Source: an uncultured archaeon
GTDB lineage: Archaea > Thermoproteota > Nitrososphaeria > JACIWG01
Length of the DNA stretch: 64,000 bases
NCBI GenBank assembly: GCA_938034445.1
Contig: CALHLD010000024.1
Span: 1 to 64,000, forward strand
Direction of reading: 5' to 3'
Below the pieces are notes generated by a model that had not been told where the DNA came from, made no database searches, and saw only the letters and a list, made by a program, of their open reading frames with translations. Of the stretch, positions 39,595 through 44,731 are shown one piece after another. Every line of letters starts with the position of its first letter. Position 1 is the first letter of the stretch. Made by a program: the position numbers and the translations under genes.

Positions 39595-39681
39595 ATGTTT
39601 AGGTTCAATTTTTCTTTTTTATTAATTTTTTAAAAAATAATGTTTTTTAGCACCCAGAAATAAATTAGTGTGGAGGGTTGA

Positions 39682-41739
39682 ATGTACGGAGATGTAATTG
39701 ATTTCGAAACACTTTATTCCGCTCTTGGATCTAATGAGAGATTAAATATTTTGAATGAATTAAATAAAAGTGGACCGTTATCATATACCCAATTAAAAAA
39801 TAATTGTGGTTTTGTTAAAAAAAGAGAATCAGGTAGGTTTGCCTACCATTTGAGGTTACTAACTTCCGTAAATCTTATTACATTAAATAAAAATACGAAG
39901 AAGTATAGTTTAACACCTTTTGGTAGGACAGTTTTAGCGGCCACGAATGAATTAAAGGAGGCAGCGTTGCAGTTTTCAGGAAAAATTTATGTTAGAACAT
40001 CAAAGCACAAAATTGAAGAATTTGATAGCAATAAAATTTATCAGTCACTAATTAGAGAGGCAAATGTTCCACGTGATTTAGCTTCTAAGATCACCGCTGA
40101 GGCTGAAGCACGTATTAGCAAACTGGAAAATGTACATTTAACCGCACCCTTGATAAGAGAGTTCGTAAATTCTATACTTGTTGAAAAAGGGTTAGACGAA
40201 TATCGTAACAGGCTTACAAGATTAGGTTTGCCTGTAAAGGATGTTACTGAAAAGATTATTCAAATAGGACTTTCCCAAGGAAATATAAGGTCCTTGAGGC
40301 AGGCGGCTGCAGATGCAGTTTTTACTGACTACCTCCTATTAACTCAAGTTACTTCAGAAGTCTTAGATATGCATCTTTCAGGAGAAATTAGTTTAGTAAA
40401 CACGGGATGCTGGGGTATTATGCCAGATAGCCTATTTTTCGACGCTTTAGCATTAAACTCTTTTAAAATTAAATTTGATTTAAAGGACCCACATTTACCT
40501 AGAGAATTTAATAAAGAAGACGTTAACTTTAATAAAGCAGTTTTATCAATAAACAAAATGCTTGAAAGTGTGACAAATGAAGTATGTATAGAAAATTTTA
40601 TTGAATTTTTACAATTAATAGAAAAAGTTGATGGAAAATTAAACGTTAAAAGAGTATACGAATTTTTTACGAACTCAGTTTTAGGAATTAACCCCTTATC
40701 TAACAACATTCTTACTTTCCAAATAAATGTGAATAATGAAAATAAAATAGAACTACTAAAAATTGTTTTTGAAGCATATTCAATTTATCTCCAAAAAACT
40801 TTAAAATCACGTATAAAACTTATCTTTAATATTTTCGAAAAAGAAAACTTTTCACATATAATACCTTATATTGCTGATATCATCAGAAAAGGAGGAAATA
40901 TTATGATTGCAAAACAACCATCAAAGTCAATATCATATATGGGTATAAGAAAAAATTTTGAAACCAATGAAATAATTTCTTCTGGAACCATAATTTTACA
41001 TTCAATATCCCTAAACCTACCACGCCTTGCTTACGCAGGCACTGAGGAAACATTTTTAAAGAGCTTAATGAAAATTAAGCTACAGAAAATATGTGATGCT
41101 GTAGGGGCACGGAAAAATAATTTAATCGATTTAATGGAAAAAGAGATATTGTACCTCTACGAATATAACAATGAGCTATTCTCTAAAAATTTCCTTTCAA
41201 TTGTAAATCTGGTAGGATTAGATGAACTTACAAAAATTGCAACAGCAGGAAATGGAGAAGAACAAAATAGGCTATGGATAAAGTTCATGGAATTTTCTAA
41301 AAAGGTCTTAGAAGAATATGGAAAAGAGAAAGGCTTAAGGATTTTACCAGCTGTTTATAATGATGATTCCTCTAAAAGATTCTATGAACTGGATAAAGAA
41401 AATATCCCTAGAGGAATTATAGAGAAAATTGGTGAAGAGAGATATTCACAGGCGCCAGTATTAGGAATTAAAATGTTGGATGAAGAAAACATAGTTAGAT
41501 GGTTACAATCAAGGATCGAAACTACTGATGGAGGATATCATGTGATTGTAGACCTAGATACACAAGAAGAAAACAATTTATTGGAAACGATGATTGATAA
41601 AATAGTTTCAAAATTGAGTATAGTAAAAATAAGAAGAAACATGATTTCTTGTGCAACTTGTGGAAACAAAAGTGTTATTCGAACAAAATGCCCTAGATGC
41701 AATTCAGCAAGAATCATTACTTTACAGACAGATAACTAG
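39682..41739 (+). CDS. NrdD-like protein with N-terminal winged helix and ATP-cone, glycyl-radical loop missing
   Basis: Three parts are visible. Residues 1-95 are a winged helix (GSNERLNILNELNKSGPLSY; KYSLTPFGRTVL). Residues about 105-200 are an ATP-cone (VRTSKHKIEEFDSNKIYQSL). The remainder aligns in outline with anaerobic ribonucleotide reductase NrdD (SLNLPRLAYAG) and ends with the NrdD zinc ribbon CATCG...CPRCNS. The glycyl-radical motif RVxGY that should follow the ribbon is absent: the protein stops 12 residues after the last cysteine. It therefore cannot be a normal reductase; a nucleotide-sensing regulator is my inference. No nrdG is adjacent. Confidence 0.75.
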   Translation: MYGDVIDFETLYSALGSNERLNILNELNKSGPLSYTQLKNNCGFVKKRESGRFAYHLRLLTSVNLITLNKNTKKYSLTPFGRTVLAATNELKEAALQFSGKIYVRTSKHKIEEFDSNKIYQSLIREANVPRDLASKITAEAEARISKLENVHLTAPLIREFVNSILVEKGLDEYRNRLTRLGLPVKDVTEKIIQIGLSQGNIRSLRQAAADAVFTDYLLLTQVTSEVLDMHLSGEISLVNTGCWGIMPDSLFFDALALNSFKIKFDLKDPHLPREFNKEDVNFNKAVLSINKMLESVTNEVCIENFIEFLQLIEKVDGKLNVKRVYEFFTNSVLGINPLSNNILTFQINVNNENKIELLKIVFEAYSIYLQKTLKSRIKLIFNIFEKENFSHIIPYIADIIRKGGNIMIAKQPSKSISYMGIRKNFETNEIISSGTIILHSISLNLPRLAYAGTEETFLKSLMKIKLQKICDAVGARKNNLIDLMEKEILYLYEYNNELFSKNFLSIVNLVGLDELTKIATAGNGEEQNRLWIKFMEFSKKVLEEYGKEKGLRILPAVYNDDSSKRFYELDKENIPRGIIEKIGEERYSQAPVLGIKMLDEENIVRWLQSRIETTDGGYHVIVDLDTQEENNLLETMIDKIVSKLSIVKIRRNMISCATCGNKSVIRTKCPRCNSARIITLQTDN

Positions 41740-41740
41740 T

Positions 41741-42034
41741 TTATGCTTTTTCAACAATAAGCTTTCCATAGCGACCTACGTTGAGGCGTATTTCCCCCTT
41801 ATAGCTATTTACATATCCATTTTCAATTCGGACCATATCACCTACATCTACTTTATCAATCTGTTCATCCCATAAAGTTAATTTTATTTTACCAGTTTCA
41901 TCCGCTAAAGTTAGGTCTGCAACCCTAGCCCTTTGACCAGTTTTTAATGTAACTTCTCTTGATTCAGGCTTCTCAATTATCTTTCCAGCCACTTGAACAC
42001 CCTTCATATTATCCCTTAATTGTGATATTCTCAA
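41741..42034 (-). CDS. RPA-like single-stranded DNA-binding OB-fold protein
   Basis: A single OB fold: MKGVQVAGKIIEKPESREV, RARVADLTLADETGKIKLTLWDEQIDKVDVGDMVRIENGYVNSYKGEIRLNV pattern is that of archaeal RPA/SSB OB domains. I start it at TTG 42034, giving the usual ...LRDNMKGVQV lead and 97 residues; the open frame continues upstream to 42190 but would overlap the divergent gene at 42080. No acidic C-terminal tail. It binds ssDNA in replication and repair by family knowledge. Confidence 0.82.
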   Translation of the reverse strand: MRISQLRDNMKGVQVAGKIIEKPESREVTLKTGQRARVADLTLADETGKIKLTLWDEQIDKVDVGDMVRIENGYVNSYKGEIRLNVGRYGKLIVEKA

Positions 42035-42079
42035 ATTATTCGCGCATAAACTTATAAACAAATACTTAAAAGCTTTACT

Positions 42080-42652
42080 TTGTGTAAGTTGATGACAAGC
42101 GAAAAAGAAGAGACAAAGAAGATAAAATTCATTGGAAAAATGAATAGAGAAAAAGAAAATATTATTGTGGAGAATGATGGAAGAATCCAAGAACTGTACC
42201 AGAGTGGTTTTGGTAAATTAGATGGACAAAGATTAATTCTGTCAAAATATGAAGCATTATACCTATTTGAGGTTAACAAAATAGAGATTTTACATAATAA
42301 TAGGAGCATGAGTTTTAATGAATTAATGGAGACATTTTATAGAAAAGATAAGGATATACTTTCCCGTTACCTAGTTTATAGGGATTTAAGGAACAGAGGT
42401 TTTGTGGTTAAGGAAAGTTTGGAAGATGGAATCGATTTTCATGCTTATCCTAGAGGTGATTATAAAGTTAATTCTATAAAATATGCCATTTTTGTACTCA
42501 ATGAAGGATATGAGATTGAGTTTGAGAAAATTTTTGAAAGTATTAAAAAAATTAAGGGAGGAGGAAATGGAATGATTATAGCAGTATTAGATAGGAGGGG
42601 GGAAGTCATATATTACCAAGTTTCTGAGGCGACCTTTTATGAAAAAAGGTAA
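42080..42652 (+). CDS. tRNA-splicing endonuclease homolog, probable structural (beta) subunit
   Basis: EndA fold: N-terminal domain, then RYLVYRDLRNRGFVVK, GIDFHAYPRG and MIIAVLDRRGEVIYY match the catalytic domain of archaeal tRNA-intron endonucleases. The catalytic Tyr is kept (Y119), but by alignment from memory to the M. jannaschii enzyme the His is Asn127 (YKVNSIKY) and the Lys is Asn159. Loss of two of three residues is what is expected of the structural subunit of the alpha2beta2 enzyme; the catalytic subunit must be elsewhere. It overlaps the prenyltransferase gene. Confidence 0.8.
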   Translation: MCKLMTSEKEETKKIKFIGKMNREKENIIVENDGRIQELYQSGFGKLDGQRLILSKYEALYLFEVNKIEILHNNRSMSFNELMETFYRKDKDILSRYLVYRDLRNRGFVVKESLEDGIDFHAYPRGDYKVNSIKYAIFVLNEGYEIEFEKIFESIKKIKGGGNGMIIAVLDRRGEVIYYQVSEATFYEKR

Positions 42653-43535
42653 CCTAAAATATTATGTTAAAATAATTAGACCTAAAAACAGTATTATGAT
42701 TGGGTTGGCAGTCATAATCGGAATAGTTTTGACCGACCCAAAACAGATTCTTTCAATAAGAACAATATATGGCTTTTTAACAGGATTTTTCATTTCATCC
42801 TATTCCATGATAGTAAACGATATTTATGATATTGAAGTAGATAAGGTTAATAACGTGGATAGGCCTTTAGCTAAAGGTTATATTACAGTAAAAAGTGCTT
42901 GGATTTATAGCATTGTATTGCTCTTTACAGGACTTTTATTTGCATATTTTACTTCAATTTTAGGCTTATTAATCACGATACTTTTTGCTTTCATCTCATG
43001 GTTTTATAATTTCAGCTTAAAAAAACATGGGATAATCGGCAATATAACAGTAGCGTTTTCAACCATCATACCATACATTTATGGAAATGTTATATTATCA
43101 TACAATGGGTTACAAGAATTTATTAGGAATCCGTCACTTTTAAGCCCTATTGTATACTGGTTTTCTATTGTATCTTTTTTCGCAGTCACAGGAAGAGAAG
43201 TAATAAAAACAATATCAGATATAGAGGGTGATAAGATAAGAGGAGTACAATCAGTTGCAATAAAATTTGGCACAGAAAACGCTGCAAAAATAGGTTCAAC
43301 ATTCTTTATTTTAGCAATAGCTTGCACATTAGGACCATATATTTTTAAGCATATGGGAGAAATTTATCTTTTAGCAGTTATGATACCAAATATTATATTC
43401 TCTTATCTGGTATACTCTATCTTAAAAGATAGTTCGAGAGAAAATGCTTTACGTGTTAAAAGAATGGCGTTAAATGGGATGCTTATTGGATTTTTATCAT
43501 TTACTATAGAAAAGATATTGGTGATAATAGTATGA
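42639..43535 (+). CDS. UbiA-family prenyltransferase, probable digeranylgeranylglyceryl phosphate synthase
   Basis: Eight or nine membrane helices, with the two prenyl-diphosphate-binding aspartate motifs NDIYDIEVDKVNNVDRPLAKG (about 67) and DIEGDKIRGVQSVAIKFG (about 193). DGGGP synthase adds the second geranylgeranyl chain in archaeal lipid synthesis; the short 298-residue form and the start KYYVKIIRPKNS fit it. It overlaps both neighbours (endA-like upstream, rfcL downstream by 4 bases), so the three are one transcript. Confidence 0.88.
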   Translation: MKKGNLKYYVKIIRPKNSIMIGLAVIIGIVLTDPKQILSIRTIYGFLTGFFISSYSMIVNDIYDIEVDKVNNVDRPLAKGYITVKSAWIYSIVLLFTGLLFAYFTSILGLLITILFAFISWFYNFSLKKHGIIGNITVAFSTIIPYIYGNVILSYNGLQEFIRNPSLLSPIVYWFSIVSFFAVTGREVIKTISDIEGDKIRGVQSVAIKFGTENAAKIGSTFFILAIACTLGPYIFKHMGEIYLLAVMIPNIIFSYLVYSILKDSSRENALRVKRMALNGMLIGFLSFTIEKILVIIV

Positions 43536-44731
43536 GTTTGCCTTGGGTAGAAAAATATAGGAACATTGAATTTAACATGATAATTGGAAATGATATGGCC
43601 AGAAAAGAGTTTTTTGAGTGGTTGAAGAATTGGAAACAAGGAGATAAGGCAGTACTTTTGGTGGGACCTCCTGGAGTGGGTAAAAACACTTCAGTTTATG
43701 CAGCTGCAAGACAATTAGGTTATCATGTTATAGAATTGAATGCCAGTGATATTAGAACTAAAGATGCACTTAATAAGAGACTAGGATCAAGTCTTTATGC
43801 TGCGAATTTGTTTAATGAGAAAAGAATGGTTTTATTTGATGAAATCGATGGCTTATATGGTAGGGAAGATTATGGTGGCCTAGAATATATTAATGAACTT
43901 ATTGATAAGCCACCTCTTCCAATTGTACTTACAGCAAATGATGAAACTAATGACAATGTCATAAAACTTTCTAGGAAGGTAATAATGATTAAATTTCAAA
44001 AAGTGCCTTTAAGACTAATTGAAATATACCTAAAGCACATATGTAAGAAGGAAGGTAAAAATATCGACAAAAAAAGCCTTCATAATATCATTGAAAAGAG
44101 TAATGGTGATGTACGTAATGCATTAAATATGCTTCAGGCAACAATAGATGCGCCATATGATTTGGAAAGATCTGGTTTTATGAAAGATGAAACTGTATCA
44201 AAATTTGATGCGATCATTGCTTTGATTTCTGAAGAAAATAAAGATTTAGCATTTAAAAAATTTTCTAAAATGAATGCTGATATAAACGAAAAGTTAATGA
44301 TAATATTTTATTCTATTTTAGCTTCAAACCTTGATAGCCATACAAGAAAAAGTGCATTAACGGCAGTAGCCGAGATCGACCTATTTAGGAATAAGATAGC
44401 TCAGACACAAGAGTGGAGAATGGCCAGATGGTATGATATGTATTTTGTTGAAAAGCTTTTTGACACCAATATTCGCAAAGACTTTAGATATTGTGAAGAG
44501 GAACCCTTATGGGAATTAAAACTAAAGTATTGGACAGAATACAGGATATTTAAAGAGATAAAGGAAAGGGTTAACCAAAAGTATCATGTTTCTGTTGGAG
44601 AATTTTCATTATACTATTTACCATGCTTAATCTCGTTAGCAAAAAAAGAGCCTGAAAAAGTATTAGAATATTTAAAATATGTAGGTTTTGGAGAAAATTT
44701 TCTTGCATATATACAAAAGAAGGTGGGATGA
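43532..44731 (+). CDS. rfcL: replication factor C large subunit
   Basis: AAA+ clamp-loader ATPase beginning LPWVEKYR, with Walker B VLFDEIDGL and the RFC-L-type sequence RSG-like DVRNALNMLQA. Walker A reads GPPGVGKN (45-52): the Mg-coordinating Thr/Ser after the lysine is Asn, with Thr next to it, which is unusual. The archaeal C-terminal extension is short and lacks an obvious PIP-box tail. It loads PCNA with RfcS (23420-24385). Confidence 0.93.
   Translation: MSLPWVEKYRNIEFNMIIGNDMARKEFFEWLKNWKQGDKAVLLVGPPGVGKNTSVYAAARQLGYHVIELNASDIRTKDALNKRLGSSLYAANLFNEKRMVLFDEIDGLYGREDYGGLEYINELIDKPPLPIVLTANDETNDNVIKLSRKVIMIKFQKVPLRLIEIYLKHICKKEGKNIDKKSLHNIIEKSNGDVRNALNMLQATIDAPYDLERSGFMKDETVSKFDAIIALISEENKDLAFKKFSKMNADINEKLMIIFYSILASNLDSHTRKSALTAVAEIDLFRNKIAQTQEWRMARWYDMYFVEKLFDTNIRKDFRYCEEEPLWELKLKYWTEYRIFKEIKERVNQKYHVSVGEFSLYYLPCLISLAKKEPEKVLEYLKYVGFGENFLAYIQKKVG

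Follow-up and report, generated by a model that had tools for sequence, protein, structure and literature searches.

The window, a 64,000-nt stretch of DNA from an uncultured archaeon of the class Nitrososphaeria, carries on its forward strand an intact open reading frame with an ATG start (positions 39,682–41,739). The encoded protein of 685 residues, hereafter the pseudoenzyme, joins a winged helix-turn-helix and an ATP-cone to a body resembling NrdD, the class III ribonucleotide reductase (RNR), and is 87–89% identical to its counterparts in congeners and 59% identical to that of the sister genus. The winged helix (residues 11–87; 39,712–39,942) was located by Pfam and by alignment, scores 39.2 bits on the ArsR-like model DUF7347 (cut-off 27.6), and includes a KxESGxFAYHL stretch, much of which is invariant among the aligned Nitrososphaeria members. 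The ATP-cone follows at residues 102–174 (39,985–40,203; 29.0 bits against a Pfam cut-off of 25.8). In the cone of the bacterial RNR repressor NrdR, K50 and R51 contact the phosphates and V48, E56 and K62 also contact the nucleotide (PMC9110341); the pseudoenzyme retains the equivalents of V48, E56 and K62 and has T and S in place of K50 and R51. These two domains form the most conserved part of the family, with the cone conserved as strongly as the winged helix.

The remainder of the protein is a degenerate NrdD barrel region (40,228–41,616, with approximate limits taken from the model) and a four-cysteine (zinc) ribbon (C657, C660, C670 and C673; 41,650–41,700), after which the chain runs for only 12 residues to its stop and lacks the RVxGY motif of the glycyl radical loop. 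The Pfam NRDD match, at 64 bits against a cut-off of 26.2, covers residues 394–676 and corresponds to the second half of that model. An AlphaFold model that drew on 32 relatives (pLDDT 83.5, pTM 0.77) retrieved class III RNRs as all 35 of its best matches in the PDB, with a best E-value of 1.6e-18; phmmer found no useful match there. By these fold matches, the entire middle of the pseudoenzyme, beyond the part matched by Pfam, takes up the NrdD fold. A first-pass annotation had read a winged helix, an ATP-cone, NrdD-like barrel remnants and a terminal four-cysteine ribbon from the sequence and had called for a structure prediction; Pfam scores above the cut-offs and the matches of the predicted structure bear out all four.

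An 87-nt promoter region (39,595–39,681, forward strand) lies between tRNA-Pro and the pseudoenzyme gene. On the other side is a convergent gene for an OB-fold protein resembling single-stranded-DNA-binding proteins (41,741–42,190, reverse strand), which is kept beside the pseudoenzyme in the genomes of the window's family that we saw, with the gene for the large subunit of replication factor C near it (43,532–44,731). No nrdG gene adjoins, as the first-pass annotation had remarked, and the pseudoenzyme gene is not adjacent to any RNR gene in this genome. A true NrdD of 622 residues with the motif RIIGYY is encoded on contig C2, with a radical-SAM NrdG-like gene immediately downstream, and a class II RNR, NrdJ, which has its own ATP-cone, is encoded on contig C10. 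The NrdR model TIGR00244 matched neither the window protein nor anything else in the genome.

To judge from its active-site residues, the pseudoenzyme family is catalytically dead as a reductase. In an alignment of 34 relatives from many families with 6 true NrdD proteins, both barrel cysteines were present in 6/6 true NrdD and in 0/34 pseudoenzymes. The column of the finger-loop cysteine, which bears the thiyl radical in NrdD, holds glycine in 32 of the 34, including Gly421 of the window protein (40,942–40,944). Nitrososphaeria pseudoenzymes have lost the radical glycine loop altogether, and in other classes a degenerate vestige follows the ribbon, such as RSSATYIPLDLW, in which the RxxGY motif is spoiled; a proper motif was found in none of the 34, and the additional true NrdD proteins that we examined all end in RxxGY. 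Features that keep the fold are retained, namely the NLPR and GG motifs and the ribbon cysteines (the ribbon in 32/34). On the NrdD equivalog model TIGR02487 the window protein scores 56.5 bits, so far under the NCBIfam cut-off of 326 that we do not call it a working NrdD. The first-pass annotation had likewise proposed an inactive reductase, and had pointed to a frameshifted RVxGY segment or a radical glycine elsewhere in the chain as ways in which this might fail; a frameshift is rejected because the Nitrososphaeria relatives share the same ending, and neither barrel position holds a cysteine anywhere in the family. An active class III RNR with an unusual radical placement, which the NrdD fold might bring to mind, is refuted by this alignment and has next to no chance of being correct, the more so as most tested Nitrososphaeria with the pseudoenzyme have no NrdD whatever and a complete NrdD, distinct from the pseudoenzyme, is encoded next to an NrdG-like gene in the window's genome.

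The gene is present in 34 of 35 high-quality relatives and extends well beyond them. Named genomes yielded 336 stretches when scanned, and we analysed the best 80 of these 336, nearly all of which are titled Nitrososphaeria, Thaumarchaeota or archaeon; two are titled 'bacterium', yet encode the same gene pair. Across the phylum, 228 of 299 sampled genomes match a profile of the winged helix and cone, a count in which weak matches may be merely the ATP-cones of NrdD; strong matches outside Nitrososphaeria occur in about 100 Thermoproteota genomes, usually in open frames of 740–790 residues. The search for orthologues of the same domain order that the first-pass annotation had recommended thus recovers them in nearly all high-quality Nitrososphaeria relatives and in other Thermoproteota. 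IMG/VR and phage records hold no viral relatives, and a viral origin was rejected on that ground. A literature search, beyond whose reach most subscription literature lay, found no published description of the family. In the tree the family is monophyletic (support 100). Its sister clade consists of archaeal NrdD proteins, and in some of these the ATP-cone already resembles that of the pseudoenzyme. One true NrdD (locus L148, 2868–4982, reverse strand; motif RVTGYY) has a cone that starts VRTS and not VxKRDG, which is the altered cone of the pseudoenzyme family.

We consider it about 75% probable that the pseudoenzyme, a descendant of an RNR, senses nucleotides and regulates the transcription of RNR genes, and so does the work of NrdR with a different set of domains. 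Four observations from sequence and gene order strongly support such a role: adjacency to RNRs of two classes, a genomic slot shared with NrdR, the absence of NrdR from Nitrososphaeria, and a phased array of sites in Nitrosopumilaceae. The first-pass annotation had proposed a DNA-binding regulator that senses dNTP/ATP, comparable in logic to NrdR and with nucleotide or replication genes as possible targets; this reading is supported, and the adjacency sharpens the targets to RNR genes.

First, 72 of the 80 named loci (the best 80 of 336) have enough downstream DNA to assess the next gene, and in 68 of these 72 Nitrososphaeria loci it encodes an RNR large subunit (nrdJ), on the same strand in 65 (median gap 185 nt) and convergent in 3. 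NCBIfam models assign the RNR neighbours that were tested to NrdJ, class II. Three of the four remaining loci belong to members of the window's family and the fourth is L127. In other classes, 12 genomes (families f31, f40 and f60) have the pseudoenzyme as the gene just before a true nrdD, on the same strand; of the 76 genomes there that match PF13597, about 64 have it in a place not adjacent to nrdD. At one locus outside the class (L142) it lies upstream of nrdJ, and at the threshold applied that genome has no further PF13597 gene. The type of NrdD with which it is paired differs between congeners (L249 versus L145), which argues against a mere inherited tandem duplication. No RNR gene adjoins the pseudoenzyme gene in the window's family (f1) or in the genomes of f5 and f6 that were compared, so that its probable target in the window's genome, the RNR genes, is deduced by analogy with relatives.

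Second, NrdR and the pseudoenzyme occupy the same slot upstream of nrdD in different genomes; in family f11, NrdR is present and stands immediately before nrdD.

Third, NrdR, which is rare in archaea (PMC9110341), is absent by TIGR00244 from 51/51 Nitrososphaeria genomes tested (38/38 and 13/13). Family f2 of the same class (eleven genomes) has nrdJ and neither the pseudoenzyme nor NrdR, and an RNR can therefore do without the pseudoenzyme; NrdR as the explanation for the gene's absence there was rejected, since NrdR is missing too.

Fourth, pseudoenzyme promoters of Nitrosopumilaceae contain clusters of GATC with A-rich flanks (boxes AAAAnTGATCTAAAA). Across 22 promoters, each taken as 200 bp, we counted 88 GATCs; base composition predicts 12.4, and the rate of 3.6 per kb measured in intergenic DNA of three Nitrosopumilaceae genomes predicts about 16. 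In the 400 kb of sampled Nitrosopumilaceae DNA used for the motif statistics, which comprise 417 upstream regions, both pseudoenzyme promoters in the sample rank at the top, with 9 and 5 GATCs. Of the close pairs, 67% are spaced near whole helical turns where 21% would be expected; leaving out the strongest array lowers the share to 53%, against 21% (p 0.001, a value to be taken as indicative because related species were treated as partly independent). A search of 51 genomes for three phased GATCs yielded about 27 places; 11 of these, from 6 genomes, fall within a few hundred bases upstream of the pseudoenzyme gene, where the array sits just upstream of a likely TATA element. The other such places that we opened lie in or beside open reading frames without a visible array, and a GATC regulon beyond the pseudoenzyme gene was rejected. 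The array was not seen in the window's family, in Nitrososphaeraceae or in other classes; with this confinement to Nitrosopumilaceae, another factor could bind the boxes, which we regard as candidate sites that the pseudoenzyme may bind. The restricted array, the genomes in which no RNR gene is a neighbour, the f2 genomes and the T and S in the cone all weigh against the proposal.

The shared operator sites that the first-pass annotation had suggested looking for are thus represented by the phased array in Nitrosopumilaceae and not by anything we would claim in the window's own genome. There, the best match between the regions upstream of the pseudoenzyme gene and of nrdJ is AAAAATAATGTTTTT, an inverted 15-bp near-match of weak significance (p 0.035) that has no support at nrdD and does not recur in a congener's nrdJ promoter. 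Four Nitrososphaera-like loci (L124, L130, L131 and L136) have upstream of the pseudoenzyme an inverted repeat like TTGACC-TTTT-GGTCAA, possibly the operator of that clade. A Nitrosopumilaceae contig end (G331:C48:16-164) holds tandem 62-bp units with three phased GATCs each.

On this evidence, one copy of a duplicated archaeal NrdD would have acquired a winged helix at its N-terminus and would have lost both barrel cysteines as well as the radical glycine. The product would form an NrdD-like dimer, whose two winged helices would bind promoter sites of the operon that it shares with an RNR gene. Nucleotides bound by the ATP-cone, and possibly also by the dead barrel, would alter DNA binding, and RNR transcription would thereby track the dNTP/ATP state. 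Analogy with NrdR suggests a repressor, and the position of the array just upstream of a likely TATA also fits an activator. In the window's genome the pseudoenzyme would act in trans on the nrdJ and nrdD of other contigs. In a broader form of the proposal, the dead reductase body would itself be a sensor, of substrates or specificity effectors in addition to ATP/dATP, and would govern any RNR class, replacing NrdR in most of the Thermoproteota that carry it; this is tentative and, in our estimate, somewhat less probable than its opposite.

The pseudoenzyme would function like NrdR without being a member of that family, and descends from NrdD without being a working one. With NrdR it has in common the linkage to RNR genes seen in its relatives, an ATP-cone as presumed nucleotide sensor, a zinc ribbon, the slot before nrdD and helix-phased sites, which for the pseudoenzyme are candidate sites; the NrdR cone reads dATP versus ATP, and NrdR boxes need to be separated by an integer number of helical turns (PMC9110341, PMC12051234). 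However, NrdR is a protein of about 150 residues, a zinc ribbon followed by an ATP-cone, that binds DNA through its ribbon and has neither a winged helix nor a barrel, whereas the pseudoenzyme has a winged helix before the cone and a whole dead RNR after it. With NrdD (TIGR02487/PF13597) it shares the fold, the position of the ATP-cone, the terminal four-cysteine ribbon and the NLPR and GG motifs, but it lacks the barrel cysteines and the radical glycine motif, has the added winged helix and scores under the equivalog cut-off.

The pseudoenzyme also shares an N-terminal winged helix with DUF7347/ArsR-like proteins, and differs from them in the ATP-cone and dead RNR to which this domain is joined. 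A weak similarity to ArsR/SmtB models, together with ribbon cysteines retained in 32/34, could indicate a redox, metal or oxygen sensor in which the ribbon is the switch, the NrdD shell a scaffold and the choice of RNR set by oxygen or metal. We hold this to be quite improbable: every NrdD has the ribbon as part of its structure, the ATP-cone is conserved equally to the winged helix, and the family is present in NrdJ-only genomes and in genomes with NrdD alike.

Adjacency to RNR genes suits a subunit as well as a regulator, and a dead NrdD might act at the protein level by binding NrdJ or NrdD and supplying an ATP-cone in trans, with the winged helix as a protein–protein domain. Three neighbouring NrdJ proteins (L076, L105 and L142) match the NrdJ_Z model almost from the N-terminus and so have little space for a cone of their own. 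However, the neighbouring NrdJ of ammonia oxidisers, like the NrdJ of the window's genome, do have one, the partners belong to different RNR classes (NrdJ and two NrdD types), the part with the winged helix and cone is the most conserved, and a phased array of sites precedes the gene. We therefore judge this account unlikely and favour transcriptional regulation of RNR genes.

Ammonia-oxidising archaea are among the ocean's most abundant microbes, and the pseudoenzyme family offers a testable candidate for the control of RNR expression in those that lack NrdR. An enzyme family would here have given rise to its own transcription regulator through reuse of the reductase body, and aerobes would retain a remnant of an oxygen-sensitive enzyme though most of those tested are without any NrdD. 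A natural side-by-side comparison exists in one genome (G310; C20/L245 and C4/L148), where one nrdD directly follows NrdR and a second directly follows a pseudoenzyme gene.
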